Source: Thuidium tamariscinum (taxonomy: Eukaryota; Streptophyta; Bryopsida; Hypnales; Thuidiaceae). Taken from it: a stretch of DNA of 64,000 bases. The notes under the pieces are model-generated. The model saw only the letters and a list, made by a program, of their open reading frames with translations, was not told the origin of the DNA and did not search any database. Made by a program: the position numbers and the translations under genes. Positions 25,751 through 53,125 of the stretch are shown here, in pieces. The DNA lies in assembly GCA_947034885.2 (NCBI GenBank), contig OX344751.2, forward strand, positions 20,150,001-20,214,000, in the 5' to 3' direction. How positions within the stretch are numbered: the first letter of the stretch is position 1; the number at the start of each line of letters is the position of its first letter.

Positions 25751-25775
25751 TTAACCCTTAAGCGGACGGAGTCAT

Positions 25776-25896
25776 TTACAAGTGCAGAAGTAGTGCAGGA
25801 TGGACGAAATGTTTGAGGATGTCAAATGAGTGCAGAGTAGGCGCAGACACTTGAGCCGGTAGATCTTGCAGGTCGGCAATAGAAGAGTGCCTCAGA
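25776..25896 (-). pseudogene. C-terminal part of a piggyBac-borne frame cut by the CACTA element
   Basis: On the minus strand this stretch continues, in frame, the reading frame that stops being contiguous at 35321. Removing the CACTA element and one CAA joins 392 nt to 121 nt, exactly 171 codons, ending in TAA at 25776-25778. The stop lies about 20 bp inside the piggyBac terminus. No domain is recognised. Confidence 0.5.
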
Positions 25897-28800
25897 CAAC
25901 ACTAGAAGAAAACCATTTTTTTTTAATGTCTAGCCCTGACATACTCATGTCTAGAGGTGAACATCTATATGTCTAAACAGATGTCTGGATGTCACAATGT
26001 GCATTTCAATGTCTATAGTAGATTTTTTTGTGTGTTGGAGACGAAGGTGTAAAATTCTAGTGAAAAACAAGATGTGCTTCCATTGACATCGACTTTTTGC
26101 TAGCGTTGGTTGAAGACAGGGTGATGTTGGAATCGATGTCTATAGAAACGTTCATTGCCACGTTAGCTTCATTGACCCATTTTGACTTTGGATAATTTTA
26201 TAAGAATTATTTTGGTTCAAAATAAAAATGCTACCCAAGTAAAAAAAAAGGAAATGGGCAGTGACAGAAAAAATTCTGGGGGAAAAAATGATGACGTGGC
26301 TGTTGATGTCACATCTGACATCAAATATTCATGACATGGCAGATGCTATAATCTAATGTGGCAGATTGCCACGTCACTACTTTCAGGTACTACACAAATT
26401 TGATGTTCTCTTAGATGTCGGAAGAGACTTAATTAAGTCATAGTAGATGTCCTCTGAGACATTTATAAGTCTCATAAGGCACCTTGTAAGAGTGTGTCAT
26501 GTTCATGTAGACGTTGAGTGTAACTTTAATGCGTTCCAACAGACTCTTATGAGACGATAGGATGGACCTTGTGACATTTATGGGAATTTTTGGACGTTTT
26601 CTGAGGTAACATATTCTAGAATTTAGAGGTATTTAGCATTGTACAAAAGTTAACTCCTACTGTTTGAAGTTTCATGTATTCTTCATTAAACTCAAGCAAA
26701 GTTACTATATATAAACATAAAAGACTATGTCCAAAGTTTAGCCTTAACATCCTATGCCATAACATTTTATAAAGTGGTCAAGGGACACTAATGTTCTATT
26801 TAGCATTTAGGAGTTTGGAAAAATTCTTTCATTGCAACGAGGATTGGATCAAGATGTTCATAGTTTGAAGTCTTCTATTTTCTATGACAACAATGACGTT
26901 TTTATAGGGTTCAAACATGTCACATAATGTACAACAAGTGAAGCGGATGAAGTAGGATAATACAAGATGTTTCAAAAGCATTGCAATAGAAAAGTAATAT
27001 AATAAGAAAGCTTGTTTCTATAGAATATTTTCAAAGGTATTTTATGTGTGGCTATTTACCTTAATTCTTGTATTTAAGATTACTATATTTTTACATAAAA
27101 AGCTACAAAGGGTATATTTTCAATACCCTATAATTTTTGTAAATTCATTCTTGTAGGTTTTCAAATAGGGCTATGTTACATTTAAAATTGAAATTTTTTT
27201 CCTTCTACTACATATATGTACAAGATTTATACCATGAAACCATCAACAATCAATTCAATTTAAGTGCTATTGACAAAGTGGTAGTTTTCAACTTTTAAAG
27301 GTCAATTGTTCATTGAACAAACAATTGAAAATTTAGGTAGGTTCCTATGAAGTGAATTTGATTGGATGTTCATAAAATTTTAACATAAGATGTGAATATG
27401 TCTTTAAGTGAAAATATATATTTTGTCCAACTAGGGATCCAAATCAAAGTTATGCTTCCCTAAATTTTTTTAGTAGGTTGGAAAATTTGGATATCTTTGG
27501 CACATCTTTTGCAAAAACATTCATCGACTTTTGAAATTTGGAAAATATACAAAAAATAAAATATGGTATTGAAGTGGCTAAAAAAATTTTGAAAGCCTAA
27601 ATCCTAAATCTTCAAATTCACAATTTCACACTAACTATGTAGCTTTTTGAACCCTTGTCATAGAAATTACACAAACATTCACAAAAACAAACAAAATAAG
27701 AAGTCATTGTACAACACAATAGACCAAAATCCTAAATCCTAACTATTGAAAATACTAAAGTGCAGGAAGATGAAGTCAAATGAGCGTCATCTACAATGAC
27801 TTTGAACCAACAAAAAAAATCATTTCAATTTTTTAAAATCTAAAATGCACACAATTGCAATATAGTAATGAAATTTTCCTAAATTAAACAATTTTACACT
27901 TTTGGTATTACAATTGTATAATTGTTTGACAATATTTTTAAAAAAATTTATGTTTTAGTATCGAAAATTCATTGCTTCTATACACCAATTTTACAAATGT
28001 GCATTACTGCAATTATTCATAAAAATCATACTTTCAATATCAAATTAAATATATTTTGCAATGCTTAAACATATAATTTTCATTATCTAAGTTGTGGTAT
28101 TGTTTACTAAGCCATTGGACAATATTCATTTATAGTAGCCACAATATTTCATTTATGCTTGTCTTCTTCTATATTGATTCAATATTGCATTAGTACTATA
28201 TTGTTAAATATATGCATTAATATTGAAAGTTACCCACATCAATACCATTTCACTTGGAAGAAGAATTTTTTTCCAATCGGTAGATTACTTGTCACTTGTC
28301 ATCAACTATCACTAAAATTGGTAGCTTGACTTCTCTCTACATCTTAGGAAATCCAACCCAACTCATAGAATCTAGCCCCTTAGTTTCTTAAATCCAAATT
28401 AGGTATAGGTAAAGCTATCTATTATCACCTACCCTTCATTATAAATAACTTTAAATATTTCATTTTAATGATGCTAGTTTACTTTTTAAAATTATCTAAA
28501 TTTTAGAGAAGTTAATTAATACCACTTTGCATTTGATTGCACAATATAGTTTTAAGAAAATGGAGAGTTCTCCCCTAAAGATTTCATTACATTCATTAGA
28601 AGTTCTAACATGTAATAGACAATGCAAGATGTTATCTTATATGTTTTGCACCCTATAATGTGCCACGTTAGCACACTTTGCCGCCATGTGAGGCTTTTAA
28701 AATTGTTTTTAAGGTGTCAACTGAGATATCAATTGAAACATTAATTAAGACATGAAGATATTTTTTGCAATATCAATTCAGACGTCATTTGAGATGTCCA

Positions 28801-30921
28801 AATAGACAAGGTTCACAACCTGTTGCACTAAGCAAATCCCATATGTGAGTGCTCTTAACTCCACCCTTGAGCTAAGAGTTTTTCACACGGGTCATGTGTC
28901 TAATTGAGTTTTCTTTCTAATTGGGTATTAAAAGAAAGCCTTCCAAGCAATGAACTCTTTTAGTCACGTCTTTCAATGTTTCTAATCTAATTTCGTGGTT
29001 ATAATTCTATCTATTCTATTCTAAAATTCAACCAAACAATCCTACTCTATTCTATTCTATCAAATGATATTGTACCTAAATCTAAATCCAAGCATTCGGT
29101 AAAAAGAAACTTAACAGTAAAACAATGAGAATGAAGATTAAATGTGAGCGGTTTACCTCCTCTGCGTAAATCTCCATAGTCCCATCGTCAAACATCATCA
29201 TGTGTATATATTCTCCCACAACCTCGCCGTCGAAATCATCCCGGCTCTCCATCTAATCCATAATAATTCTTGCGTTGTTGGTCAATTTAAATAGATCCTA
29301 GTAAAAGAAAACTAGAGGTTATGTAGATCTAATTGTAATTTCGTAATTCCTTTAATTCCTCAATCTCTGGTAATTAGAAAATACGACAATTCAACTTAGT
29401 CTACCTAATTGGTTAAGTCTTGGGTAAATATTCTATCCTAAGCAATCAAAATTCAATGGTTAGTTTTTATTATTGTTAGTTTTATTGTTATTTGTGATCA
29501 ATATTTGAAATTACAAATGGAATTAATTATTTTGAATAGAAATTATTATCAAATCTTTTCAAATCTAATTAATTTTTGAAATTATGTTAATTCCTTGAAG
29601 AAATTAGTTGTCAATTTGTCCCTTCCCTTTTGTCTTGTTAGAATATTTTAATTCAAAAATTATCATCAAATCTTTTCAAATCTAATTAATTTTGAAATTG
29701 CGTTAATTCGTAAAGAAATTGGTTGTCAATTTGTTTGTTTGCTTTTTGGCTTATTAGGCCTAATAAAACAAAACCACAAAATCCAAACCTTCTAAGAATC
29801 TAATTAATGACTAACTACCAAAGAATGTAGAACATTCCTAAAGAACGAGAATAAATTCAATAGTAATATTCTAAAGAAATGATTTTTTTATTCCCAAGGG
29901 TCAACCCCCCAAGGCATAAGAATCAAGTTCAATAGTGTTATTCCTCAAAATTGAATTTTTTATTGGGAATTGCTTCCCTTGTTAGGATTCCTTCGTCTTA
30001 ATCTTCCTAATCCTTCCCTCTCCTATTTCATTCTAGTTTCGGTGTGTTTTGCAACAACTTTGAGATGGAGATGGCTATGGCGTTAGGAGCTTAAGCGAAG
30101 TTTATGTGAAGAATGTTGAGATTCCAAAAATTAGATTTTTAGAGAGAATCACCCAAAAAAGAAGGGTTGTGGCTTCAACTGCCAACCCGGAGATTTTCTC
30201 AATAATCAAGTTTTTGAGATTTTGATTTTGTGCTTACGAAGTCTGGTTCGGCTTCTGGACTCTCGACTCCCCACTGCCCCAGTGCCGCTCCCGACTCCCC
30301 CACTCCTTGCCTCAGTTCGGTGCTGGTACCCCTCCCGTCCTCTGCCACGTGGCGACTGCGAGTTGGTCGGACCCGTCCTCCTGCTGCGTCAGCGCCTGCC
30401 ACGTGGCGCAGCGCGATTGGCGGTGGGGCGGGGTGCCGGCTCTCCCTCTGTATGGTTCGGTGGTCTCCCCAGCTGGTCGACCGGGGTCTGGCTGGACTAG
30501 GGTCTGGCTGGATGTTCTAACTCCAAATTTTTGTAAACACACAAGGTTTTTGGGTGGATTTCTGGACTTAATACTAACTACAGTGACTCTCTATGTGAAC
30601 TAACTTCAATTTCTACTTGCACTAATTTTTATCTTTGAACTTTCTTAAACGAAATAAATAATGAGCGAGTACTATGAGGGTGGGATTTTGTGAAATAAGG
30701 CCAATGACTAAGCCATTATTTTCATAAGCCCGGAATTTTGAGGTTATGGAATGTAATAGTGATTAACTAGAAGTGTCACACTAGTCTTTCCCCAACTTTG
30801 CTCATCACCTTTGACTCTTGGAGTTATTATGGTGCTTTAGATTTTCACCTTTTTAATTCCAATGAGTAGAGCTTCGCCGTATAAGGGGTTCTCCGGTAGT
30901 ATTTTAAGAGTTTTAATCGCA

Positions 30922-31027
30922 AAAGGAGGTACACATGACAGTGTTGAATCGAACTTTCACTTTAAACTCCCAAAATTTCCTAGTATTTCAAGATTTTGTC
31001 ACCAAAGGAGGTACACATGACAGTGTT
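30922..31027 (+). repeat. Short tandem duplication inside the LTR
   Basis: AAAGGAGGTACACATGACAG occurs at 30922 and 31004, each time preceded by TTTTGTC/TAATCGC-like sequence and followed by GAACTTT. Copy B of the LTR has the same pair at about 58995 and 59075, so the duplication predates both insertions. Confidence 0.7.
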
Positions 31028-31272
31028 TGAACCGAACTTTGGCACTCAATGGTTGAAATTTCTAATGAAACAGTTAAGGCTTAGCCTTTTCACAGAAAAG
31101 AGTTTCTAGAATTGATTGAAGGGGCCCTAAGCCTTCAAGGGTTTAATAATCAAACTAAAAATCAAAAACCTTGGCCAAGACCTTTGGTCCAAGGGGTGCT
31201 CCGACCACGTCGGTAGCACAAGAGTGAAGAAACAAAGTGTTGGTGCACGAAAGAAAAGGGTACTGGCAACCT

Positions 31273-31312
31273 CGAGGGGGGCCCTTATATACCCGTGGCT
31301 GGGCCCCTCTCG
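31273..31312 (+). promoter_or_regulatory. LTR core promoter: TATA box in an inverted repeat (copy A)
   Basis: TTATATA (31285-31291) lies between CGAGGGGGGCCC (31273-31284) and GGGCCCCTCTCG (31301-31312), which pair at 11 of 12 positions. The whole block is unchanged in the other LTR copy while the neighbouring sequence has drifted. The start of the transcript (R region) is expected about 25-35 bp downstream. Confidence 0.6.
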
Positions 31313-33350
31313 GTAATTGCCAGTGAAAACACTTTGTTACTTCTTATCCTAAACTACCCTAATGTAATTCCAAAATATTATTTGTTTAATGGTGGAAATT
31401 TCTAAAAACATCTCCATTTGGCAAACAAAATCTTGGCCAAATCAAATCCAAGATCTTAACCCAAAATATTTTGGAATTAACCCTAATTTACGTAGATATT
31501 TTGCAAATTAACCAAAAGTAATTTTGAAAATTGTCTTTCTTTAGCCCAAAGATGGATTTTTACGCAAGAAAGAGATCTTGACCAAATCCAATCTTTGATT
31601 TTCCAAGAGATATTTCCAAAATCACTTCTAATTAACCGCAATTAACGATTAAAAAGTCAAACTAAGAGCTGACCCTCTCTATCTTTTAGGGAACAACTCA
31701 AAACGAAAAACCGTTTGCGCCATTGTCTTCAGAAGACCCCAATTAGCCTAAGGGACCCCTAACCCCTCATTCCTAGGCCATTTGTGCGCCCAAATTGGAA
31801 TTACGGTAACTCCAATTAAAAGTCAAAAATCTAACTTTTAGGATTTGCGCCTTTTGATGAAGTTAGGCCAGGGTTGTTAGGAATGTCCGTGAGAATAAGG
31901 AATGACTCCTCATTTGCGACAATCAGACATCATTCGCTCTTGATACGTCGGTCAACCCGCCGCCAACTTGTAACTTTCAGTGAAATTCGATGTCGATGCC
32001 GGTTCTGGTAGTTGGGAATGTTGGAATGTCTTCAAACTTGACCGGGCACTTATTAAGCATACAAAAACCTATCCTAATTTTTAGTGAGATTTTACCGCAT
32101 CATACATAATTTCTATGATTTTATGAACATTTCTATGTGTGGTTGACTTCCCATAGAGTCAACGTGGAATTTCGAAAAAATCCGAAATAAATTGGGTAAC
32201 ATCTAGGGCACCCCTAGATTCTTGGTGTAAGTCCCACGCAACCTTGCATCTTTCTAATTTTAGTAATTTGGAATTACTTTGCCCAATTGGACAATTTAAT
32301 TCCCGATGCTCGGGAATCTTGGACAATTGTTTGATTCTTGTTCGCTCCTGGCATGCTCCTATCCTTGGAACACCTCTCTATAGTCTTCAATCTCCAATCC
32401 TCCATCTTTCATCTCGTGAAGTTCGAATTCTCCAAATCCATTGTAGTGGTTTTACTTTTAAATTCAATTTGTTCTAAAATTGAACTTAAGCCCTGGTAAC
32501 TCTTCTAGGCTCATAGTAGACTCTTTTAGCTTAGTCAGTATGTCATGTGCATCTTTAAAAGGTTGACTTTGCACAGACAATCACTAGGACTAACTAACTC
32601 TCGATTCCTTTATTTCTCTCGGAATTACTAAATTCTCACATAAACTTGTTTTGGAGACTTAGAATGATTCAAATTTCTAGGATTAGGAATTTTCCACCTT
32701 CTAAGTTGGTTTTCTACCATTTTGGCATAGACTGATACCAAAACTCCTTCAACACTCTTTTTATGTCTTTTTCTTGAATATTTTGGCTAATTTTCGCTAT
32801 TTAATCGCGAAAAATGGACCCAGAGTTTTGAGTGCCATCTCGAAGGCTCACACCATATGGTTTGTCTTTCCTCCTAGTACCCCATTAGTATAAATATCTT
32901 GCCTTCTCATGTCAAAATATTCATATAATAAATGGTTTTTGAAGCCATGTGTAGTCATTCTAAATTTTTCATTTTTGACTATTTGCCTTGTGTAGTATAA
33001 ATGTATGCAATTTGTTGAATAGTTTTTATGTTTTTAAAGGTTAATAGACTAATCGTTTGATAGATCTAAAAGGTCTAATATCAAAAGATATGAATAGTGG
33101 CCAATCAACTTGGAGGTTGTTCATTGTGAATAGTTCTCTAACCGATTAGATATAGCAAAAACAAAATTCCCTACGAACAAACCTTTACTACTATACTATG
33201 ATAAAAATGACAATTTCAATGGCGTTGTTAATTTTTGGCATGACATTTGGCGCTGCTGCCGAGGAATTTTAAGATGGATAGGTTTGAGATGTTTGATTAA
33301 AATTATTGTCATGTAAAATTGAATATTTTTAGTTTTGATAGGATATACAA

Positions 33351-33665
33351 ATGAAAAATTATGAATCTAAATACCATAAAAAAGAACAAATTTTTAATGC
33401 AAGTAATAATTATGGAAGTCAAATTTACTACCTTCATCAATCTAATGACGACTTGTTGAATCAACTTCACGAGAAAGACTTAGAAATTAAAGAGCTTGAA
33501 GAAGTATGTCATAATCATTTCGAATGTGGAAGGAAAGAATATGAAAATTTATGCAATGCTCAAGATCATATAAAGTATTTGATGACTAGCCTTGATGATG
33601 CTAATAATGAGAAAAACAACTTAATACAACAAATTCATGAGTTTGGAGTCAAGGTTGATGCATAA
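33351..33665 (+). CDS. Small coiled-coil protein in the CACTA element, 104 aa
   Basis: An ATG-started frame of 104 residues rich in Lys, Glu, Asn and Leu. The spacing of hydrophobic residues in the middle (LLNQLHEKDLEIKELEE) and towards the end (TSLDDANNEKNNLIQQIHE) suggests a coiled coil. There is no membrane segment. It lies in the right third of the CACTA element. CACTA elements usually encode a second, DNA-binding protein besides the transposase (TNPA-like), and this could be an exon of such a gene, but no sequence motif proves it. It may also be an exon of a longer spliced gene. Confidence 0.4.
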   Translation: MKNYESKYHKKEQIFNASNNYGSQIYYLHQSNDDLLNQLHEKDLEIKELEEVCHNHFECGRKEYENLCNAQDHIKYLMTSLDDANNEKNNLIQQIHEFGVKVDA

Positions 33666-35320
33666 GTTTGGAAAAAGACCTAATTAGATTTTAGTGTTCA
33701 TGCGGGAGAAAAGCTGAAGCTCCTTCCTTGGGAAGAAGGAAGTAAAACTTTAAAGTTAGAATTAGAGGTTAGATAGTTGATGTGATGTGATGTGATGTGA
33801 GACAATTGGAGTTTAATTTAAGAAGAGATTTTTTTTTAAATATTGAAGTTGGTGTACGCGTGTGTTGAGTATTGTGTGAGAATACCGAGTAGAAGCTTTG
33901 TTGAGTGGAATTTGGTACCAATTGGATGAAGCAAGAGGAACCTATTGTGAAGGAAATACAATTGAAAGAGAAAAATTGAAATGATCATACTTGAGTTTGT
34001 ACAAAATAAAATATCAAAATAAATTCATAATAAAATATCAAAAGAGAGAAATTAGAAAATATAAAATGAAAGATAATTAAAAGGTTAGAGAGGAGTGTCA
34101 TTGTAGTAAACAATTGGAAATTGTGGAGTCAAATGGATATGGAGCTAATGATGTATTTGAGAGTTAATTAAGGACAAGTTAAGGTCCAAATCGTAGATCA
34201 ATTGATGTACATGAGTGAAGGAATCCAATAGATTATTATAAGTTGATAAGTGACGACTTAGTATAAGAAACCTAGCAAATTACCTCCCTAGTGTTCGAAC
34301 CCTACCTCTTTGGTTGTTTTTCCAATTAGGTAAAAATACTACTTCTACACCATGCAATACAGTTTCCATATATGGTGTATTATATATGGATTATAATGTA
34401 TAGCATATTATATATGATGTATTTATATGGTGTACAATGTATGGTGTATGGTGTATTATATACAATGCATTGTGTATGACATGTTGTGTTGGACATTATA
34501 TTTGCATTGGTACATATGTTGTAGTAGGCATTATAACATACATGTGCATTATATAGAATATGTGTGACTAGTAGATATATTAGTGTCATTCTAAATTGTG
34601 CATTTAATCACACAAATGTCCAATGTGACATTATTTTGTTTGTTTGATTTGTACTAAATATTTTAATAAATGTTCATGATGCCATCAAAGTTGACATTGC
34701 AAGATATTTCAATGTCTATATTGATGTCTTCGTAAATGTGTATATCTCAAATATTATATATGTTACTACAGTGTTGAAGTCTTACAGGACATTATATGTC
34801 AATATATTTGTATCCTTGCCTACACCACATGCACGGAGATGAACATCATATGAAACACATAGATGTCTCTAATGATGTCTTTTGAGACATAAAGATGTCT
34901 TTGTAGACATCATAGAAAACACCCCCCAAAAGTTCAAAAGATAGTAAATGTGCTTTTTAAAATCTGCCACGTCACCATTTGAACATGCCACGTCACTCCA
35001 TTTTGACCCCCAAATGAGCTGACATGGCAGATGCCACATCAACAAAATCTGGGTGGATGAAAAAAAATCCTAGTTGGCTGCCTGCGCCTACGTGGCACTA
35101 AATTTCCAACCACATGGCACTCTTTCAGGACCCCATTGACCGGTGTTTTTTTGGATGTCTAGCCCTTGACATGTTCATGTCTGCGTGTTTTTTTGGATGT
35201 CTTGCCGATGTTTTTTCTAATGCGATCTACTTGGACATCCACGTGGACATGGAGAATGTCTAATCCAACATCAACATGCATGAATGGACGTGTCCAGAAA
35301 AAGACTGTTTTCTTCTAGTG

Positions 35321-35712
35321 CAAAGAAATTGAAGAAAATGCTGTGCCGATGCTAAGATCATGAGGTTTGACTCGTCCGTGGGCACGTTGACTACGGCAGG
35401 CAAGGTGGCCCATTTGAAGTGGAAGTCCATTTCAGTGGACAACGGAGCTTGAAGAAATTCTGGAAAAATACAGGTATCCAAGAGTTTCATGTCTTCTTCG
35501 ATTTGTGAGTGTCGAATTTGGATTTCGTGCAGCGATTTGCGGAAGAGAGGCCTTGCAATGAGTGCCATTCGGTGCGAGGAGGAGGAAAAGCCTTGTGTGG
35601 GCAATTCCGAAACTTCTTCCGGACAGAGCTGACAATAGCCTCTGTACTTTCTATGAAAGTGCCCCACTGCCCGTTCGTCATGTTCACCGTTGCTACGGCA
35701 TGCATGAGACAA
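35321..35712 (-). pseudogene. piggyBac-borne frame interrupted by the CACTA element
   Basis: A minus-strand frame enters the CACTA right end at 35320. Without the CACTA element it continues in frame into 25896-25776 and stops next to the piggyBac terminus. It has no clear ATG at its start, and a parallel frame (35705-35487, ATG-started) overlaps it, so a frameshift near 35490-35600 may also have occurred. The product is not recognised. Its place downstream of the transposase in the same direction suggests a second gene or a 3' exon of the element. Confidence 0.45.
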
Positions 35713-36406
35713 AACTAGTGATGTCGACGTCGTTTTAAAAATTGGTTGTAATCTCTTTTTTTAATCAGTCCATCATGACGAGGAATGTGTCAATTAGATT
35801 CAGTCATTCTTTGTTCCCTTTGAGAAAATGTGCAGATGCATATGTCGACGTAGTGTCAGTTACGGCAACGGACGTTCAGCCTTTCAACGTCGGGGTGCTT
35901 GCCATGTATGGAATCGGATTTCCAAATTGTTGATATCATGACGCAGGAATGAAGCATTTTTACATACCAAAAAAGGACATTGCATTCCTTGATTTATAAA
36001 CATACATATGAGGCTCTATAGGCGACAGCCTGAAGTAGTGCCACTATTTACTACCGTGCACAAAAAGTACATGAGGTCTCTTTGTACCCACGAGATCCCA
36101 CATTCACATTGGATGAACAGGAGCTCAAAAATTATTCCATCCCTGCTATGGATACTTAGCGCATACTAATAAAGAAAATGTGGAACTTAGGAAGCCAGTT
36201 TCAGTATTCATTGCACTACTTCGACTGAATGTGGCCTCCCACTTCATAGTAAAACCTCCGAGCCACTAGCCGTACATGCCGAGGATGGAGACATTCCCCA
36301 ATGACTGTTGTCAAAACGAGCTCCCTTCCAAATCATAACTACTATACAAGTCTTCAAAAACCGTAGCCTTCTTGCAGCTACAACATCACGATGACCTCGG
36401 AGGTTT

Positions 36407-38911: not shown

Positions 38912-38936
38912 TTCTATGAACCAGCCCTGCTAATCA

Positions 38937-39041
38937 GAATAAAAAAATATTAAAAAAATGAAAAAATGAAAAAAATGAAAAAATAATAATAAAATAAAAA
39001 TATTTAATAATTTTTTTTTAAAAATTTAATAAAATATTATT
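38937..39041. repeat. A/T low-complexity tract
   Basis: Runs of AAAAAATG and AATAAT units fill this stretch immediately upstream of the transposase frame. It separates the transposase from the next minus-strand frame. Confidence 0.6.
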
Positions 39042-39074
39042 ATCTGATGTGGCAGTCTTTGTGCCACATCAGAT
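39042..39074. repeat. Perfect 13-bp hairpin
   Basis: ATCTGATGTGGCA (39042-39054) and TGCCACATCAGAT (39062-39074) are exact inverses with a 7-nt loop. It lies between two frames of the piggyBac element and could act in transcription termination or be an insertion footprint. Confidence 0.6.
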
Positions 39075-39149: not shown

Positions 39150-39896
39150 TTATGCTTCAAGGGTGCATGTCATTGCGGAAGACATGTGACTAGTACCAAG
39201 TGAGGAAAGACTTTGTCCTTCTGCTCTAATATCTGGAAATGGACCACCAAATCTGGTTGCCATGCAGTTCTCAGTGTCAAATGGATGCAGGTTAGGTAGG
39301 CGGCTTCCTTCGAGAAGAAGGGGTTCAACCTCTCCACAGGGGACAATAATGCGACCACCATCGCCAAAGAGAACAATATACATGAGGTGACCACTGTGGA
39401 TGTTGACAAAAGACTGTACCGCAAGTCCAAGCGTCCATGGTGATAGATTGTTACGAGAGAGTGCGCCTCCAACGTGTAGGACTAGCGATGCAGGTAGACG
39501 GGTAGGAATGGGTGCCATTGATGTAGGCGTACGCGTAGTGAGCGCGTGGTCGACGTCTTCAATGTTGGGCATATGCGATGGCACACGTAAAGACGGATGC
39601 ATTGTCGGAACCCAAGCAGATGCTTAGACATTGGTCACCTCAATAGCAGTAGATGATGTTGATATGAGAGGAGTTTCCACGTTTCGCACGTCCCCATCCA
39701 GCAGTGGCGCATTCTGTCGGTCATCTTCAGCGTCATCATGAGCATTTGCCGTCATCTCATGCTTCCGTTTTCGACATGACGGTGTAGCTTCACCAGAAGA
39801 TGCTGCGTTGCATATTACCACTGGTAAGCGACAGAATTGCCGCGTCGGATATGGTGATGAGCGTTGCGTGTTGGAGGTCTTCCTAGTCTTTGGCAT
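39150..39896 (-). pseudogene. Unrecognised piggyBac-borne protein, one in-frame stop
   Basis: A minus-strand frame of 248 codons starts at ATG 39896 and ends at 39150. It is interrupted only by TAA at 39624-39626, which one C-to-T change from CAA would give. The N-terminal part is basic (MPKTRK, CRKRKHE) and could include a nuclear localisation signal; it is followed by an acidic patch (DDAEDDR). The C-terminal part has no motif I recognise. It lies in the same direction as the transposase, about 240 bp upstream. It may be a second gene of the element or an upstream exon. Confidence 0.5.
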
Positions 39897-40332: not shown

Positions 40333-40923
40333 CAATGTCGATCATCCTTGCGTCATGACGTTCTACTTCACAGGGCAAATAACGACTCATTCCAGCAATT
40401 CCGAAATGCTGGAAGATGAATGCATGACAAAGATGAATGCAGTACGTGGACAACTGACTTGTAGGTCATGAAAGCAAACTGAAACTGGAATGTATAAAAC
40501 AAGAAATGCTCTTAGTCATACCGCTTCTTCGAATTGCCGTTCCAACTAAAGTGCAAGAGGACGACAAAAACTGATACAAGCGTCGGAATAAAGTTGGGCC
40601 GCAGTCAACGTCTGCAGTCGACGAAGATGATCAGCTCCGATGATCGAGAGCTACAATACTTGCATGCGGGATTGAAAGTACGAAAACTATTATGACCTGC
40701 AAGAGAATGTCTCAAACTTGAGGAGCTACAAAGCAAGGTTGTTCTGTTGGACAGCGCGACATCGCGACGTCACGAAACGTCCAGTAGACCCTCCGCGACA
40801 TCCATAAAAGTCAAATTTACCTTTGACTTTTTTTAAATTACCACGTGGAAAATAATGCCACCTGGATGCCATGTGGCATCCACGTGTTACATTTTAGGGC
40901 GCATGCGGATCTAATAAAGATGT

Positions 40924-41008
40924 GCGACTACGGGTAGGGCGACCTCGGGTAGGGGCGACCTCGGGTAGGGCGACCTCGGGTAGGGCGACCTCGGGTAAGG
41001 GCGACCTC
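40924..41008 (+). repeat. Tandem GGGCGACCTCGGGTA array
   Basis: About five units of 16-18 bp, followed by a TTTTTA microsatellite to about 41045. The same core recurs inverted at 51420-51860 and in the middle of the Mutator-like element at 46240-46600. Confidence 0.8.
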
Positions 41009-42750
41009 TTTATTTTTATTTTTATTTTTATTTTTATTTTCTTTTTCTTTTTCTACCTTTATAATTCAAGCCAAGAGATTTAATATAGGCTTGATATTGT
41101 ATCTAGAATACACATGCATTTATTTACAAATGCTAATATGTTAGAATCTATTGTTCCTTACTATGACCTGGCAGACTTTGAACAACTCTAAACTAGGGAA
41201 GTTGTCAAAGATACAGATTCTCCAAATAGTACTTGAGATATCATTATAATGGTGATGTTAAGTTAGGACTCAATGGGAATAAAAAGCATACTCTCCCAAG
41301 CATGGGAATTTTATTCACCACTGTAGCCATGTGCCATCTCAGTGATCTCACCTCTCATGGTAATGTAAAAATGGTACCTCATTTATCACTACATAAACAG
41401 CAAAGCCTTGAGGATTAATCTCACATCAGGGCTGATTTGACTCAACAACCTTTAGTGTGGAGGTATTCAACCTCCAACTAAGTTACAGATACTAGTTCTA
41501 CTTGAAATAAATCTCATACAACAAGGCAATATTTCTTACTTCAATAACCACCTACTTTGGTGGCTAATGGATCTTAGTATCTTGTTTGGTGAATAATTAA
41601 CCTACTCAGTTGACAACTTCAACTTTACATGATGTAATGACCACACCAAGGGATGTTAATTTCACTTGTTTGGAGTGACTTTAAATCAAAATGACTGGTA
41701 TCTTTAGGCTACTTGTTATACTTGTAACTTGCTAGTCTCTTGAGCTTCCAATGTGCCTTGATTAGTATTCTGGCTACCTCGATTGCTACTTTTAGCTACT
41801 GTAAAGTTCCCCTTTTGGTTCTCTACTTGCTAGTAACTTTAGCAAAGCTGTTCCTGTACCTCGAAGCTGACTGAGAACAGGAAACTGCCGCAAACAATGG
41901 CTGCTACACAGGCTGCATCGAACTCTCAGGTTCTTTGCTTTGGATTTTAACATGTTTTTTAGAATATGGACTTTACTAAGGTGTTTATGCTTTGTTCTTG
42001 TTTAAGTTATTTTATGTGAAAACGATGACAAGTGACCTAGGGCTATAGACACCTTGCATACGCACTAAAAACATACTAATGGTTCGTTTTTGTGTATGGG
42101 TGCAGGTGAGGTCCTAGTCCTCTTAAAATTACTTGGAACAAGCAAATCTTGATCTTTCTCTAAACTCCTTACTGTCCTAAAGGAAAAAAAGAACTTGTAT
42201 AGTGATTTAGTGGTTGATGTATGATATTTCTTATAGTTTATGTCACATCAACTAACTGAGATTCTTATAGTCTCTATAGACACAGGGATCTCTTGTGCTT
42301 TTGAAGACAGTGTTTTACTGCTATTTTTAGCATCTGATTTTGTATGGTCTCTAAAGACACATAGTTCTTGGTTGTTTTGAAAAGAGTGACTTACTGCTAT
42401 TTTTAGCATCTGATTTTTGTTCATGTTGGATTTACTTTACATCCCAGCAAAGGACTTCTTGTTAAAAATAGAAGAACTTGGTATGATGGGATTGATAGGT
42501 GTTAGTATTACTTTTGATAAGATATATGTAGAACAATGCTCTGTTAAGACAAGAGATGTTCCAAAAATTCCTTTTTTTTGTTAACATATGGAGAAATTCC
42601 ATTGCAAAAAAAAGGGGGCAACCTCTTCTACTGCAAATTACATTTGTTACACTTCTCTAAAAATACAAAAAAGTGGATGTAACAATAAAATCTTCTACTT
42701 CACTTGTCTAAGATCATGTGGTAAAATTTTCATGAGGTATAACCATATAA

Positions 42751-43479
42751 GGGCAATTGCATGAAAGACTTGTACTATTTTTCATCACACGTCTCATATT
42801 GATCTATTTTTTGACCATAACTTTTGTATTTTTGCTCCAAATGACTCAAGATTTCTAGAAAAGGTACTCATAACTATCATATAGCTTACATGAATTTTTG
42901 ATAATTTTCAAAAATATTTAATAAAAAAATAATACTAGTGATTGAATGTCACATATGACAATTTGGAAGTTCTTAGTACTATGGAATACTTCTTTTTAAT
43001 GATTTTGAGATGAAATTTGGATGAGATGGTCTTCTAATAGACTTCTAGTTTTACACACAAGGATTCTTAAAAATAGTTAATTTTATGTCATGTGGAGGTC
43101 TACAAAGAGAGCTTCATTCTGCTTGTATTTTGAAACATATAAAATATTATTTTGGTAGATTTTTAACTGAATGACCATCTCCATAAAATTGTTGCAAATA
43201 GACACTTTTTATTTTTTGTATTTACTTATTTTTACTATTTTTCCCTAATTAAAACATGAAGGTATGTATTTTCTTAAGGTTTGGCACTTTTCCAGTTCTC
43301 CTACTTAGAAAATTTTCCTATACAATTCCTTCTGTAGGTACCTTTGTCTTAAAGGTGTATATATAAGTCATATTTTTTTAATTTAAAAATTATTTTTCTA
43401 ATTAAATAGTACTCCAAAAAAAGTCAGAAGTACTATTGCAAAACACAACAAATAGTACAAGTCTTTCATGCAATCACCC
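42751..43479. mobile_element. MITE family C, copy nested in the Mutator-like element (729 bp)
   Basis: Left end GGGCAATTGCATGAAAGACT and right end AGTCTTTCATGCAATCACCC are inverse over about 20 bp with two mismatches, extending further through TTGTAC. The interior aligns with 1884-2611 (inverted) and with the first part of 16967-18171. The target duplication is not clear. Confidence 0.65.
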
Positions 43480-46237
43480 ACAAATTAGAAGATATTTGCA
43501 TTCAAAGTTGGAAAAATAAAATTTTGAATGTTGGCCTACAATTTCAATGACTTTGACCACTATTTGTAGAAAATTTATGCACTATAGACTTTGTTTTTTA
43601 TGTTGAATTACTCCTAAGAGCCCAAGGGGTTAGGACAAAATACAAATGTGATAAAATACAATTTCTATAATTTTTTTGAAGTTGGCATCAAAGAAGATTA
43701 TGTGAAGCACAAAAAATAGAAAGTATCTATATAGGTACAGTTATAAAGTTGTTTTTAGATTATCTTCAAATGAATTTTGAAGATATAAATTCAAAAAAAT
43801 CACCAAAAATACAATTTTCATCTTAAATAGCACTTGAAGTTTTATTTGAATTAGTCAAAACTATGATTTCTATTGATTTGTGAAAAAATGAAAAAGATTC
43901 AGTAATGAGAGCATCAACACTTTCTCCAAATATTAAGTTTTTCAACACTATGCAATTATAAACACTTCATAATATTTTTCTAATAATTTCTTTTTGGCCA
44001 TATTGATCTTAATTAGTTTTGAATGTAAATGTTGAAAGACAATCTTTTTTTTTAAAAGTGAAGCAAAAAGAAATTATGCCCAAAGTAAGGCAACAACCAA
44101 AAATGGTTGCTTGAGTACTTAGGGGTTAACAAATAGTTAAATAGAAATAGGTTGAACAAAAAAATAAATTATTAATAGTTCTAAGATGTAATTGAAACAT
44201 GTAAATTCTAATTGTGTGATTCTTCTAAGAAGAAAATTTAACCTTGACAAACAATTTTTTAGAAAATTTGTGAAAATTGCATTCAAAATGAAATCTAATA
44301 TGTTATTTTTTCAAGAAGTTTCTATAATTGCTCAATAAACAAGATTGTCTATAATTTTTTATCTTTAGTCCAAATACAATGAATCATAGCTTTAGACAAG
44401 TGGATTCTTGATCCCTTACAAGTTATATTTTAATTTCATTTTTGCAAATTTTTTCACATAATAATTTAGGAATGAACAAATGAGAGTAAATTTTATGACA
44501 AAAATTACAAAAATTTGCACAAGAAAATTCAAATTTGAGATTCTATACATAGACCTCAAGACCTTATCACCTTGCATATAGGATATTCAATATTCTTTTT
44601 TAAATGGCACATCATAAAAGAACGAGTTAATTTATTTACATTACTTTTTGAAATTTAGAAGCATGCAATGTGGCTTAAGAATTTATGCTAGTATAATAAT
44701 ATCATGTCTTTTTACAAAACAATGGATGGAGGAAACTACTTTCAAGGGCTTCATCAACCATGGTTTATCCATAACCAAGTTCACCAACTATCTACTTGCC
44801 AATTGCTTCTTTAGATCAATACACTCAACTTCTTCATTAATTGATGCACTTTCAAAAACTTCACTATTGTATTTTTTCCATATTATTAATTAATTTTTAT
44901 TAATTCAGCAAATTTTCTAATAAAATACAAAATAGATTCCATTGTGTATTTATACTTTTCTTGCATTCTTACTATACTCTTCTTTAAATGTTGTCACCTA
45001 TTCACAGAGAATAATTCTAGAGTCATCTATCAACAATTCTTCAACTTTCTTTCCATAGTAAGATATTTGGAATGAATCTTGGGGGATAAAAAAATAATAT
45101 CAAGGTACATAAAGTCAACCCACATAGTTCCCTAATGCATCTTTTTTTAGGGCTTCTTTTAGTCATTCTTAAATGACATTAAAAGTTTTAACTAGACAAC
45201 CAGATTGTTTATTTTTAATGCATAATTACAAGAAAGAGCTTGCAAACCATAATAAAGATTTTTGCACTATATAGAGGGACAATTTGAAGAACAAGGGCAA
45301 TTTTAGAACACTTGAGTTCTTAATCCCTAAAGGACCAAGGCCATTTTTCTACAAAAAAATACTTAAACTCTCATTTTTATAGCAAAGAGAAGAAAAATTT
45401 GAAAATTGTTTTTTTCGGCATCTAACCTTAGATTCTTATACCTAACTAGTACAAAAATTCGTGGATATCCTTTTTAATAATTGTAAATATTGCATTTAGA
45501 TATGAATTCAATAAATTATTTTTCAAGACAATGATTCAATTGTCCAAGAAACAAGATTGTTCATAACTTTCTCAAAATAAATCCAAATGTATCAAAACAT
45601 TTCATGTAGGCAAAAATATAATCTATGAGAAAAAAATAAAAAATAAAACTTTGATTTAAAAAATTGTTGTGGGCTACCTCTCTCTTTTGTTTTGAGTTTA
45701 TTTAGGCATAACTTTTATCTTGGATACTAATTGAAAAAATATATATTCATATGAAGCTAATCAATTTTTCTATCTTCAAAAAAAAAATCCAATGAACAAG
45801 ACAAAACTTAAGACAGTAGGTACCTATATAAAATCTCATTTGTTCCCTAAAGGGACAATGGTTCTTCAAGCATTACAAACCCTAGAAATCCAGAACTCCT
45901 AAAATACATTCCTAGAGAAAAATATCAAGGCATTAAGCTCTCCAAACTCAATCGAAGAAACAAATAGGAAGTAAGCAATAAATATTTTTCAATAATTTAG
46001 AAAAAAATTATTTCTAGGGTCTCCGTAGTGTGTGATGATATGAGAACCCTCGGACAAAAAATAATAATAAATAATTCTTCAAGTAGAATGGAAAAAAAGT
46101 TTAAAAATTCAAAACCTCGTTCTAATTGCCAAAAAATTCCAAAATAAAAGAAACTCATACAAAGGCAAGGAAATAGCTCACACACCAATTACAATCGCCT
46201 TAGACAAGCATTCTCCTATAAAATTATGCTTTAAACC

Positions 46238-46610
46238 CGCGGTCCCCTACAAGTGATCGCCCTAGACCCGCATTCTTCGTCAAAAAGGTCCCCAAGATCC
46301 AAAATGGCCCCAAAATTGCAAAAAATTGAAATTTGGGGGGCAAACAACTCCCACCTCCTTAAGAGGTCGCCCTACACCCGCGTTCTCCCACAAGAGGTCG
46401 CCCTAGACCCGCATTCTCCTTCAAAGAGGTCCCCAAGACCCAAAATGGCCCCAAAATTGCAAAAAATTGAAATTTGGGGGGCAAACAACTCCCACCTCCT
46501 TAAGAGGTCGCCCTAATAGCGCGTTCTCCTTACAAGGTCGCCCTACACCCGCGTTCTCCTATGAAAGGTCGCCCTAGACCCGCATTCTCCCTCAAGGAGG
46601 TCCACAAGAC
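46238..46610 (+). repeat. Tandem GGTCGCCCTAGACCCGCATTC array
   Basis: Three larger units (anchor GGTCCCCAAGA-type sites at about 46287, 46428 and 46599; spacing about 141 and 171 bp) combine short GGTCGCCCT repeats with a common AAAATTGCAAAAAATTGAAA block. The open frame across it is a consequence of the repeats and has no protein signature. Confidence 0.8.
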
Positions 46611-47169
46611 CCAAAACGGCTTCAAAATTGCAAAAAATTGAAAATTTGGGGACAACGGCTCTCTCTTCCCTATGCAAGCACCCTAGACAAGTAATCTTCT
46701 ATAAGAGGTTGTTGTAGAGAAGTGATTGCCTATGAAACATAGAGTATGGCATTTTTTTTAAATTGGAGGGAAGAGTAGTAAAATTGATTATGATTAGTTA
46801 CACTTGCATCAATTTTTAAACATATTAATGTACCTTTTATGTTTGGTGAGCTAAGACAATGTTCATGTTTGAGATTAGACTTCAATGCATAGATGTCTTA
46901 TATCATTTGCTAAATATTAAAGCTCTTCTCAAAATTTGTTTATCTTGAATTATATATAGTAAAGCTTTAATTTTTGTATGTCTATTTTAATCTATGAATT
47001 TTTTTTCTACTTTATAATTGGAGTGATAAGGTCAAAACTTTCAATGAGCATTCAACTTTTGTATAGAGGGGAATTTATTATTGTATGGATGTTTGTGTAA
47101 ATGGAATTGTAATTTTTTGTATATTGATTTATTAAATGGGGAACAATTTACAATTTTACATAGATCTTT

Positions 47170-48800
47170 ATTTATTATTTTGTATTTTGAAGTTCAATTC
47201 ATAAATAAGTCATTATTAAAATGACTCATTGACATTTACATAAATTAAAAGGAGAAGTTATCATTTAAATTTCATCCTTCTAATTCTAAAATCGTAGATT
47301 GAGGTAATAAAAAATACTTGAGTAGAATGATTCTTAAAGAATGGAGAATTCTAATGGATATATTCTTATATACATGAGTCTCCATCTATTATATTGTATA
47401 CTAGAATTTATTTGATATATTTTTTTGGTTAGGATAATTCTTTGACATTTTTGTAAATCAAAAAGCAAATGTTTTCATTTAAATATCTTTCCACTAATTT
47501 TTAGAATTGACATGAAGGTGGTGACCTAAGGAAATATGAGTACGGTGATACTTTGGAATAGAAAAACTCAAATGGGCAAGTTGTTATTGAAATCTCTATC
47601 CACTATTTTGAGTTCTAAAGTTTGTTTGATAAATAATTTACCAAAAATATGAGCCTTCAAATAAAAGTTGCATAAATCTAAAAGAAAAGTTTCATTTTCA
47701 ATTGATTAATAGTGGATGGAGACTTTATTAACAATTTGCCTTTTCAACTTTTTTCAATTTTCCTTCTAATTTTAAAGATGAGAGTAAGGTCGTATTTAAA
47801 TAAGACATAGGTATTATGATGCTTGAAAATTGAAAAAAGTTGAAAAGGCAAATTGTTAATAAAGTCTTCATCCACTATTTTGAGTTCTAAAATCTATTTG
47901 ATAAAATAATTCACCATGAGGATGAGCCTTCAAAATAAAGTTGTATATCAAAAAGAAAACTTATTTCACTTATACCTCTTCCCTCTAATTTTTAAGATGA
48001 AATCAAAGTGGTGCCTAAATAAGACATGACTATGATGATGGTTCAAAAATAGGAAAAATTGAAATAGGCAAATTGTTATTAAAGTCTCCATCCACTATTT
48101 TGAATTCTAAAATTTGCTTGATAAATAATTTGCCATTAGGATGAGCCTTCAAATAACATTTGTATAAATCAAAAGAAGAAGTTTTTATTTAAACCTCTTC
48201 TTTTTTTCTTTTTTCTTTATTGTTGAAGGTGAAAATTGATAAATAGTACGTAAGTATAATGATGCTTGGAAAATAGAGAATTTCAAATGGAGAAGATCGT
48301 TCACAAATATCCATGCATTATTTTTTATTCTAAAATTCACTTAATGAATATTACACCATAATGATGGCTTTAAGATTTGATTCGATCAAAAGGGGAAGTT
48401 TTCATTTAAATCTCTTCCCTTTAGTTTTTAAATTTTTGGTAAAGGTAATGAAGAATACATGAATATGTTGATGCTTGGAAAATAAAAAAATTCAAACAAA
48501 GAAATTCTTAGTTATACAAAATTCAAATCATTATTTTGTATCCTAAAATCCACTTTATAAATGTTACACCATTAAAATGACTATGAAATTTATATAAAAT
48601 CAGAAGAGAAGTTCTAAGTTAAAATAATCTCTTCCCTCTAGTCTTAAAATTTTTGGTGAAGGTGGTAAATTATACATGAATATAATGATGCTTGAAAAAT
48701 AGAGAAATTAAAATGATGAAGTTCTTACACAAATATCCATTCATTTTTTTGTATATTGAAATCTAATTATTCAATAATACAACATCTTGAAGGGCACTCC
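47170..48800 (+). repeat. Degenerate tandem array, period about 215 bp
   Basis: A unit carrying TTTGATAAATAATTTRCCAT, AGCCTTCAAATAA and AAAAGAAGAAGTTTTCATTT recurs near 47205, 47415, 47625, 47899, 48119, 48336 and 48553. Neighbouring units are alike but diverged. Related pieces occur again near 49560. It is a satellite-like expansion inside the Mutator-like element. Confidence 0.6.
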
Positions 48801-49086
48801 CAATTCTTTAACTATAATGTGCAATCAAATGAAGTGTGGTTTTAATTCTCTTGGCCTAAATTTTAGACAATTTTTAGATGTAAACTAGCATTACTAAAAT
48901 GGGATATTACTCATTATAAATAATGAAGGATAGGAAATAATACACAACTTTACCTTTTTTTTTTTTTTCTAAAGTAGGGTTGCCAAAAAGAATCTCCAAA
49001 AATCTAAACTATTATGTAGTAAACAAAGTTTGAAATTAAGAATCCTATGAACTAAATTTTATGAGAGCATGAGCTCTACATATAAA

Positions 49087-49187
49087 TGAGAGTGACAACT
49101 AATGGGTGACAACTAATGGGTGACAACTAATGGGTGACAACTAATGGTGACAACTAATGCATGACAACTAATGGTGACAACTAATGG
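49087..49187 (+). repeat. 14-bp tandem repeat GGGTGACAACTAAT
   Basis: About seven units, the last ones lacking a G or carrying GCA. It is a short microsatellite-like array. Confidence 0.9.
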
Positions 49188-50210
49188 TTGTGCTCTTATA
49201 AGTATTCACACTTTGAATGTGTTTGAATGCAATTGTTGAATGGAAGTATTGCTTATCTAGTCTTTTTTAAATGTATCACATGTTTAGTCAAAGTTTTAAT
49301 AAGAAATTAATCCTCTTCTCTTTGTGTTTGCAAGAAAAATGCAACTCTTTTCTATGTATAATGAACATAGGGTATAATTAATTAGCACCCCAAAAAATTC
49401 AAAAATAAAGATAGGGTGATTGAAATGACTTGACTTCAGAAATTTAGGTAAAGATGTCCCTATTTTAATTCATCAAATGTACCTACATAGCCCTCATCTT
49501 TTAGGGGCTTGAATGCACATGATGTCCTAACATATTACATAGTGCACCCCTTCAGTACAACATTAGAATGATTCTTTGACTTTTACGTAACTCACAAAGA
49601 GAAGTTTTAATTCAAATCTATTTCTTCTAATTTTTAAATTTTAGGTGAAGATGCTAACTTGCTAAGAAATATAAGAATATGATGATGCTTGAAGATTAGA
49701 AAAAATCAAATGGGGATGATTTAAAAAAAAATCACAATCCATAATTTTATATTTCAAAATCTTCTTGATAAGTAATACATGGGCAGATCGTAATCTCCTA
49801 AGGTTTCATTGTCTCTACAAGGGGTCAAAATGGATTTTGGACAAGTTCCTATAAGGTCAATTTTTTATGGAACTTTTTGAAACACTTTTATAAGATAGAA
49901 AATCTTATTGACTTTTTAGAAATGTAGTTTTTTTTGAATTAGTGCCTAAAGGCAAGAGTCATATCAAAATAAGTTTAGATCTAAATTATGTAGGTAAAAA
50001 CAAATTCACAAAAGTTTTAAAATGTTTTTTTCTTATAGATTGTAATTTTGTCTACTTAGAACTTTGATTCATTTTATTTAGATTGATGATGTGAAGATTA
50101 TGAAGCATTTTATTTTGCAGTCAATAATTAAAAGATTTTGAAATTGCTTGATATAGGATTCATTTTTTACTTCAATTTTACTTCTTTTTTAAGCAAATAG
50201 TTTTGTAGTA

Positions 50211-50521
50211 ATGGGGAATTTCGTTAAAATGGCGGTATTCCACATGCCATTTTCACACCTTGACATCTAGGACAAGTATACATTGCTAATATCTAGGACA
50301 CTTTTAGATTTCTGAAATCTATGACAAGCATAGATATTAGACCAAACAATCTAAAAAATCTAGGATTGGTATAGATTTCAGAAATCTAGGAGGGTTGTAG
50401 ATTTCCAAAATCTAGTACAGGTGTAGATCCTAGGATAGAAAAAACAGTTCAGACCGCGCAGTCTAAACTGCTCAAAAGCGCCAATTTAACGAAATGGTGC
50501 CATTTTAATGAAATTTCCCAT
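50211..50521 (-). mobile_element. MITE family B, copy 2 (311 bp)
   Basis: This is an inverted copy of 11501-11811 with the same length, starting ATGGGGAATTTCGTTAAAAT. The target duplication is AGTA (50207-50210 and 50522-50525). It inserted into the Mutator-like element. Confidence 0.9.
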
Positions 50522-51205
50522 AGTATTAACTTTGATTATTAGAACACTCTCACTATTAGAACTAGTATTTCTAATTCCACCTTAGAGCTATTCATGGTTT
50601 ATTTTTTCCTCTATGATGTACCTTCTACTAACAATTTAAAATAAAATGAAATTTACATTATTTTTTTTACAGTTATTTTTCCTATATTTTCAATTTAGTT
50701 TTGAAGAATAATTTTTTTAAAGTCAAGATCTAAAGTGAAATTTTTTTTAAGTTAAGAAATCAAATCTCTTAAGCTAAAGTAAACTAGTCTATTTTCATTT
50801 GAAACTCCATTCTACCAACTAGACCAACTTGTTTTTGTCACTCTAGTTTTGGCCCCATTTCTACCTAAAAACCCCCCAATTCCCTTCACTCTATGACAAA
50901 ATCAAGGATTTTATGACAAATTGGAGTAACGTGTTTCTATTTAAATAGAGAACATCTAGTTGTTGATTAGGTGGTTATAGGATGTTTATAAGTTGTTTAT
51001 GACCTTAGCCTAGAGGTGGTTTTGTAATTTAGAATTGTCCACTTCAAAAATTTACAGAAATTATAGTTTTGATTGAAAAATTATGATTCCATTTGGATTT
51101 GATTGAAAAAACATGTGCACACTTTAAAGAAATATGTGCCCCTCTTAGAATTGGCTCCAATATAGCTAGATTGTAAATAGGCATGTCTACCTTAATTTGC
51201 CATTG

Positions 51206-51800
51206 TCCCCCCCCCAAATGATTTCTTTACTTTGAAGTTTGAATGCAATTATCTTGCAATTTATGTGGTGAAAATTTTTGAAATTTTTTCACATATTCTC
51301 ATACTATAATGTTAGAAGATCCTACCATTACATATGCAAAAAATTACCATTTCTAATTTTCTTGCTTTTTGCACTAAAAATGGCAGTTTTGAGTGTTTTT
51401 TTGAAAATTCCAACAAAGAGGTCGCCCACCCGCGGTCGCCCCTACACCCGAGGTCGCCCTCCCGCAGTCACCCCATGACAAGAGGTCGCCCACTTGAGGT
51501 TGCCAAAGTCCCCCCCAAAATGATTTCTTTACTTTGAAGTTTGAATGCAATTATCTTGCAATTTATGTGGTGAAAATTTTTGAAATTTTTTTCACATATT
51601 CTCATACTATAATGTTAGAAGATCCTACCATTACATATGCAAAAAATTACCATTTCTAATTTTCTTGCTTTTTGCACTAAAAATGGCAGTTTTGAGTGTT
51701 TTTTTGAAAATTCCAACAAAGAGGTCGCCCACCCACGGTCGCCCCTTGACAAGAGGTCGGCCCTACACCCGAGGTCGCCCACCCGAGGTTGCCCTCAAAA
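51206..51800 (+). repeat. 302-bp tandem duplication at the right end of the Mutator-like element
   Basis: Two nearly identical units start at about 51206 and 51508 (anchor ATGATTTCTTTACTTTGAAG at 51218 and 51520). Each ends in a cluster of GAGGTCGCCC repeats whose number differs between units. The near identity points to a recent duplication. Confidence 0.85.
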
Positions 51801-53125
51801 CTACATACGCGGTCGCCCTATCTTGATGTGTAGTCGACCCACCCGTAGTCGCCCTGCCTCGCTTTCCATGTCAGCGTGGACAGCCTGTCACGTAGGCAAA
51901 AACTTCTTACTTCGCGGTAAAAAAATTTACCCTTGCGCGACAGGATGGGACGGGGTAGCGACAGGTTGTCTTATACGACACGTGACGTCGGACGTCCTAC
52001 ACGACGCCGAAACCCGAAAATATGTCTAACAGAACAACCCTGCTACAAAGGCATAAGAGAAGACATCGCAAGGGGGAAATTCAACAACATTCGTGAAAGC
52101 GAGTCCTCCACAGCAAGAAATGAAAGGACATCGATGCATGAGCTCAGTGAATGGAGTGCAAGGACTACTCATGAATAGCTACTCTGGCTATGACTGAAAG
52201 TTGCGACAAAGTATTGGATGCAGGAAACATGAAATGACTAGAGATTGGGGTGCTTGTTATCGGCTGTTGTAATTCCTTCTTATTCTTCAGTGAAGAGTGC
52301 TCTGCAAGGAAATGAATCAGTTGCTCATGAAAACATGAGGCGGCTGTACAGAAAGATCTCATTACTAAATTCATTGTAGCAATTTGATGGCAGCAGTAGC
52401 TTCACTACCAACGTAGGCAAGGAAATGTACATACAGCTTGACATGTTCCTCATTTCTTCATGGAACTATACACGCATGCAGATTCAGATGAAGTAAATGA
52501 TATAAAAAAATTAGTCGACATCTACGTAGGGTCTTCAACTGCATGGCTTCATTCATTGAGATGATGGGCTCCATCTGCACGACAAGTGAATAGTTAGGAT
52601 TTTTCAGCCACAGCATTGAAGAACTAGCCGGCCACTTGGTGTTTGGAATTTTTTTAATTCTGTTGTATCCTACTGTGGAGTGACAAGTGTCAGCCCCTTT
52701 TGCCTTGGCGCATACACTTCTTCCACATGTTGTGCTCTCCCATCGTACTACCTGTCAGTTGCACATATTATAAGCTTTGCACCAATGTTTTTAGACTCTC
52801 AGTGACATCAGCTTCTGCATACTGGCGGGCAGAGAACGTGCTACCCAAAAGCAAGAAAGAACTTCGAATCTTGTGAAAGGTTTGAGCTGTGAAGCTCGGG
52901 CAAGGCCAAATTTTCCCTTGTTTTTGGCATGTGGATCCTCTTCAATTTTTCTAAAAATACAGACACCATCTTCTCACGACAGCTTCAGCTAGCGCTAAGC
53001 AAAAGTCTTCTACAGTTCATCTGAGAAAAATAGAAACAGATGAAAAAACGACTCTCACAATAAAATACACCGCTTTTTCTCTGTCCATCGTCCAAAATAT
53101 GGATGTCGGCCCAGTTAAGGGTTAA

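Follow-up and report, generated by a model that had tools for sequence, protein, structure and literature searches.

Nested transposons raise a question of order: which element came first, which arrived later, and can this be read from the nest itself? We address it at a locus of the moss Thuidium tamariscinum. The window, that is, the whole 64,000-nucleotide stretch analysed (C3:20150001-20214000 in the 363-Mb, 19-contig assembly that was searched), contains a piggyBac element with a CACTA element and a Mutator-like element inside it, and the CACTA element holds a solo long terminal repeat (LTR). A first-pass annotation had taken the order of events to be fixed by matching target duplications. 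We conclude with high confidence that piggyBac came first, CACTA and the Mutator-like element later and the LTR after CACTA, with further inserts added. The proposed order is right, as other genomic copies indicate; the duplications alone are insufficient, since two of the four patterns do not exceed chance.

Boundaries of the four elements

The outermost element is the piggyBac (25755-53121; minus strand, from its transposase remnant), recognized by its CCCTTAA/TTAAGGG ends, a DDE_Tnp_1_7 domain and an uninterrupted copy on contig C7. It lies between TTAA target duplications at 25751-25754 (left) and 53122-53125 (right); TTAA also bounds the C7 copy on both sides and a third copy, L042, on the left. 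Inside it are a non-autonomous CACTA element (25900-35320), with target site duplications (TSDs) of CAA at 25897-25899 and 35321-35323, and a non-autonomous Mutator-like element (40734-52041), with the 9-bp TSD GCTACAAAG at 40725-40733 and 52042-52050. The solo LTR, 4,009 bp long, occupies 28844-32852 of the CACTA element between copies of CCATA at 28839-28843 and 32853-32857. All four pairs of duplications are present where the first-pass annotation had placed them, and its estimate of about 6.6 kb for the emptied piggyBac agrees with the computed 6,626 bp (full length minus CACTA, the Mutator-like element and one target copy each).

As a chance control, the end patterns were counted in 200 dinucleotide shuffles of 25701-53200. 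TTAA with 7-bp inverted ends is observed 4 times, against a mean of 5.3 per shuffle, and TG..CA with 6-bp inverted ends and a 5-bp duplication 4 times, against a mean of 5.0. The CACTA pattern, observed once, is present in 2 of the 200 shuffles; the 9-bp-duplication pattern, also observed once, is present in 23. Sequence alone thus exceeds chance in part, the TTAA and LTR end patterns being no commoner than in shuffles. The end patterns are uneven evidence and genomic copies are therefore needed; such copies settle all four elements.

An uninterrupted piggyBac copy

A search with piggyBac DNA (35324-38323; best 40 of 63 candidates scored) lists 44 matches, including the window itself and a close copy on C7, split into two pieces at 92% and 89%. 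Among the remaining listed matches one is at 76%, and the others are at 64-68% save two short pieces at 74-75%. The C7 copy (C7:196940-203557; positions 940-7557 of locus L040) runs from TTAA to TTAA, has the ends of the window copy and aligns with it in six blocks of 88-93%, over which identity is 91.2% (Kimura two-parameter distance 0.095; 429 transitions, 88 transversions). Its flanks are unlike those of the window. It joins window position 25899 to 35321 over a single CAA, reading ...CAGACAAAGAAATTG..., and 40733 to 52043 over a single 9-mer, reading ...GGATCTACAAAGGCATAAG.... Both flank pairs are thus joined with single target copies, which places CACTA and the Mutator-like element inside the piggyBac, as annotated, and provides the uninterrupted copy with predicted joins that the annotation had proposed to seek. 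The third copy (L042; C3:46.26 Mb, 76-81%) shares the left end after TTAA and has no CACTA at its site.

The window segment 52473-52927 is missing from C7 and was considered as an insertion; part of it is found in L042 (112 bp, 79%), and we read its absence as a probable deletion in C7. The C7 copy also has a 0.73-kb miniature inverted-repeat transposable element (MITE) of its own (L040 4447-5181), bounded by GGGT...CACCC and flanked by a GAAT duplication; in type it resembles MITE-A, described below. In the window, the right flank of the piggyBac opens a repeat that recurs at about 59-bp spacing.

The CACTA element and its two inserts

The CACTA element has the ends CACTAGAAGAAAAC and its inverse, with the TSD CAA; the C7 site has a single CAA and no element. 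When its left end was searched (query 25600-26600; best 40 of 2,001 candidates scored), 38 of the 39 other listed copies began at query 294-302 (window 25893-25901), the element start being 301. Without its two inserts the element measures about 4.0 kb. No frame of at least 120 aa that could encode a CACTA-type transposase was found in 25900-35320 outside the LTR insert, except 35260-35760 (minus strand), which straddles the right end of the element and has no Pfam match at E 0.1. As no transposase frame was found, the element is called non-autonomous.

Six other CACTA copies (L076-L081) were picked from 20 that match through to the LTR site in one piece. All six read AAATCCCATATGGTTTG, with a single CCATA, no LTR and 28843 joined to 32858, which confirms that the LTR lies inside CACTA. 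Among the best 40 scored of 2,455 first-look candidates for the LTR family, 22 other rows start at position 1, and all but one of the 40 other leading rows have their end at 4007-4009; two-LTR members are suggested only by a pair on the same strand of C8, spaced about 12.1 kb. Outside the nest, the window holds a second solo LTR of this family (56941-60935; TSD GTGGT at 56936-56940 and 60936-60940), 86% identical to the nested one with no gaps.

The second insert is also LTR-type, 1,400 bp long (32950-34349), with TGTAG...CTACA ends and a CCATG duplication at 32945-32949 and 34350-34354. The same six copies join 32949 directly to 34350 over a single CCATG.

The Mutator-like element and its contents

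The ends of the Mutator-like element recur among its other copies. At the right end (best 40 of 282 candidates scored), each of the 39 other rows listed stops within query 161-171 (52040-52050), the element end being 162, and 26 of the 29 other copies fetched have the exact end searched for, with different sequence after each. Of 38 other copies listed for the left end, where the element starts at query 85, 28 have their start at query 78-85 (40727-40734) and 10 at 101. The element has about 18 bp of similar ends together with inverted subterminal arrays, and its 9-bp TSD, present twice in the window, corresponds to a single 9-mer at the C7 empty site. No MURA-type transposase was seen; one frame of at least 120 aa lies inside (51619-52029, plus strand), of which no Pfam scan was made. 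The superfamily call rests on the TSD and the ends because the element is taken as non-autonomous.

Near the left end, an extra piece of about 1.5 kb (41053-42571) is matched across by C5:26563958 alone (first 2 kb) among the 38 other listed copies. The left arm is joined directly to 42572 in 26 copies (86% or more) and in 6 more (73-75%); two could not be judged. Three copies (C1:22655842, C2:8201072 and C3:46562267) hold 1.5-1.75 kb of unlisted sequence at this site, so exclusivity to the C5 copy cannot be claimed. Because the C5 copy has the piece without piggyBac flanks, it would have moved with the Mutator-like element. Positions 41893-42567 resemble C1:11754106-11754720 (81-82%), which is possibly a host gene. 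No long frame was found in the piece, which has a gene-like start, ATGGCTGCTACACAGG..., as in a possible Pack-MULE.

Two MITEs with different histories lie in the element. MITE-A (42751-43479) is present in all 35 other listed Mutator-like copies spanning it (best 40 of 10,136 candidates, a ranking in which copies without MITE-A would stand lower). Four further listed rows cover MITE-A alone, and relatives of it exist in the window. MITE-A is, by this comparison, an old passenger of the Mutator-like family, evidently older than the nest. MITE-B (50211-50521; 311 bp; TSD AGTA at 50207-50210 and 50522-50525) is absent in all 32 other copies scored (33 of 4,549 candidates), in which the match breaks off at 50210 and picks up again at 50521, the two parts lying side by side in the genome; L075 likewise lacks it. 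A sibling in the window at 11498-11815 (97.5%) gives the AGTA duplication on comparison. Among the copies scored, MITE-B is thus private to the window copy. At 49308, about 224-256 bp present in 26 of 32 other copies are missing in the window and in six others, a length difference that suggests Mutator-like subfamilies.

The expectation that inner elements are later accordingly holds for CACTA, the Mutator-like element and the LTR and fails for MITE-A. The four-element inventory likewise stands as far as it went; no fewer than three other inserts had been overlooked, namely the 1,400-bp LTR-type insert, MITE-B and one of about 294 bp in the transposase gene.

Alternative explanations

Could the matching duplications be chance direct repeats around misdrawn elements? 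The shuffles speak for this in that the real sequence shows two of the four end patterns no more often than they do; independent genomic copies nevertheless stop or join at exactly these bases, and the uninterrupted copies rule chance out, leaving it a vanishingly small probability. Slightly more conceivable, and still very improbable, is that the C7 piggyBac lost its inserts by precise excision rather than never having had them. CACTA and Mutator-like elements do move by cut-and-paste; yet in C7 both sites have one target copy and no footprint, the C7 flanks differ, so that excision would require both inserts to be ancestral and to have been lost precisely, and L042 also lacks CACTA. Later insertion into an older piggyBac is the account we prefer, and several observations weigh against it. 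The only close uninterrupted piggyBac copy is that on C7, and its 9-mer at the Mutator-like site, TCTACAAAG, has one mismatch to GCTACAAAG. L042 starts TTAA-CGCT instead of CCCT and, of the two sites, is informative at that of CACTA only. Support for the CACTA ends from other CACTA copies concerns the left end only. The first-pass annotation had also proposed a search for empty TTAA sites, and no copy among those listed (best 40 of 1,867 candidates) spans a 250-base join of the two flanks; beyond the left flank, its best relative continues with different sequence.

For the 1,400-bp insert the choice lies between one insertion and two LTR elements later fused by deletion. The insert is composite: two repeat families meet near 33657-33664 (best 40 of 82 candidates scored with 32950-34349). 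Insert positions 1-215 and 209-297 correspond to parts of an LTR that measures about 530 bp in other copies and is found repeatedly in same-strand pairs, with a spacing of 3.4 kb, on C1, C4 and C5; positions 298-715 continue inward, and 708-1400 belong to another repeat, of which at least nine other copies end at 1400. The halves are thus from different families, joined at about 8 bp of shared sequence, and all three fetched copies of the right-part repeat have conserved upstream sequence that is unlike the window, with differing flanks beyond the right end. These features favour fusion, which we consider possible and on the whole doubtful: a single CCATG duplication flanks the whole insert, the six CACTA copies have one CCATG, and two separate elements would need the same pentamer target. 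A chimera formed in one step is likewise not easily explained, because ordinary reverse transcription gives both ends the same LTR. By its sequence, the insert is the apparent start of one retroelement family and end of another inside one 5-bp duplication.

Order of events

The piggyBac-first order follows from the uninterrupted C7 copy, and LTR-after-CACTA from the six CACTA copies; position alone does not give order, because MITE-A, although inside the nest, already belonged to the Mutator-like family when this copy inserted. Each of CACTA, the Mutator-like element, the LTR, the 1,400-bp insert, MITE-B and the short insert is shown to be an addition by one or more homologous copies that lack it, and we infer the transposition mechanisms from family features. 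In the proposed sequence, a piggyBac of about 6.3-6.6 kb, its transposase now broken, inserted at TTAA. Later a non-autonomous CACTA element landed 145 bp inside its left end, and a non-autonomous Mutator-like element of roughly 11 kb near its right end; the latter brought MITE-A with it and most likely the gene-like piece as well. CACTA then received an LTR retrotransposon, shrunk to a solo LTR via LTR-LTR recombination (a loss that we infer), and also the second, chimeric LTR-type insert. MITE-B entered the Mutator-like copy, and the short insert the transposase gene.

Divergence weakly suggests that the Mutator-like element preceded CACTA, since it is more diverged from its family majority than CACTA is. 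It differs at 13 of 411 positions (3.2%; 7 of 29 copies used), where others differ at 0.5% or less, and over the 209-bp end at 9 of 209 (4.3%; 29 of 29 copies), where others range from 0 to 4.8%; the window CACTA differs at 40 of 2191 (1.8%; 7 of 7 copies; others 0.9-2.3%). Subfamily structure could mimic this difference, a point that counts against placing the Mutator-like element first.

The piggyBac transposase and its family

The longest transposase open stretch in the window piggyBac is 325 aa from stop to stop (36407-37384, minus strand; DDE_Tnp_1_7, E 6.6e-39). Likeness to a family member spans 36410-39437 in two pieces, with 6 in-frame stops and one frame change; the aligned part of the C7 transposase has 14 stops. 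An insert of about 294 bp (38861-39154), with 13-bp inverted ends CATAAGAGGTTTT and no clear target duplication, interrupts the gene; C7 lacks it and its frame continues across the site. Both copies have CCCTTAA at both ends, with an exact inverted match of 7 bp only; in the available part of one source (PMC10175614), piggyBac inverted ends start CCYT.

Some family members retain long stop-to-stop frames: L013 (974 aa), L033 (916 aa), L019 (738 aa) and L021 (689 aa). L033 matches the solved structures of piggyBat (9c0f) and piggyBac (6x67). Four aspartate positions, derived from the alignment to piggyBat, read DDDD in the window copy and in 22 of the 25 family loci covering all four (L033 being the query and one of the 22; L017 and L036 do not cover them), and DNDD in the other three. 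We take these positions to be the catalytic residues of the piggyBac transposase. A Cys-His pattern, a candidate for the C-terminal cysteine-rich domain of piggyBac transposases, is present in 26 of 27 family loci, where the piggyBat match is weak (7.8 bits). The frames of L013 and L019 terminate at a tail stop, CPQ to CP* (TAG), which occurs in 5 of 28 aligned sequences (L013, L015, L019, L038 and C7). The notion of a programmed tail TAG was set aside in favour of C-to-T decay; between the window and C7 copies, transitions outnumber transversions by 429 to 88.

In a tree with 49 database matches, five family rows group with one unnamed protein within a larger clade of 27 rows (100/100); the proteins of this clade carry no organism names, and the named animal rows fall outside it. 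Two propositions are put forward together: that the host land plant has its own diverse piggyBac lineage, distinct from those of animals and comprising about 40 loci, of which some have 700-970-aa frames and a few possibly still code for a whole transposase, and that the 1,400-bp insert is an LTR-type insertion whose 5' and 3' ends come from different retrotransposon families. As a joint claim this is tentative, falling a little short of an even chance.

Neighbouring features

Elsewhere in the window, a 567-aa frame (14341-16044) matches PF09994 (DUF2235, Tle1-like catalytic domain); its best named matches are Ceratodon purpureus proteins (42% identity, E 7.7e-100), with Physcomitrium lower. 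Tandem arrays with units of 28 bp, 23-86 bp and 45 bp cluster at 22939-24138.

Comparison with known systems

In plant genomes, nests of elements from known superfamilies are common. The nesting here is itself ordinary, and the piggyBac family, with about 40 loci and some long frames, is the most notable part. The locus offers a nest whose order is demonstrated by actual uninterrupted copies. It also cautions on two points: target duplications that are short and judged by eye may be no more frequent than chance predicts, and an element lying within another can be a passenger that predates the nest. A specialist might follow up two things here, the moss piggyBac family and the chimeric insert. 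The available part of one study calls piggyBac occurrences in plants occasional, with red algae as an example (PMC12732532), which gives the family in this host group its interest; a fern genome repeat table has 1,230 PiggyBac entries in the portion available (PMC6890710). No moss piggyBac is named in the accessible parts of the literature searched, which is not proof of absence.

The solo LTR shares TG..CA ends, a 5-bp TSD and a single LTR with plant solo LTRs and differs in its length of 4.0 kb. The CACTA element has the CACTA...TAGTG ends and 3-bp TSD of the En/Spm type; it differs in that no transposase frame was found and that two inserts make up more than half of the window copy. With Mutator-like elements and Pack-MULEs, the large right-hand element shares a 9-bp TSD, similar inverted ends and gene-like DNA inside, whereas its size of about 10-11 kb, its subterminal GGTCGCCC arrays and its 303-bp tandem repeat set it apart, and no MULE transposase was seen. 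The outermost element resembles the piggyBac superfamily (Trichoplusia ni piggyBac, 6x67; piggyBat, 9c0f) in its TTAA target, its CCCT ends (window and C7), its DDE_Tnp_1_7 domain with DDD(D) and possibly its C-terminal Cys-His stretch. It is about 6.6 kb long, whereas the intact beetle elements in the available part of one description measure 2.1-3.5 kb and encode 500-725-aa transposases (PMC12732532); the family frames here reach 916 and 974 aa and include a long N-terminal part.

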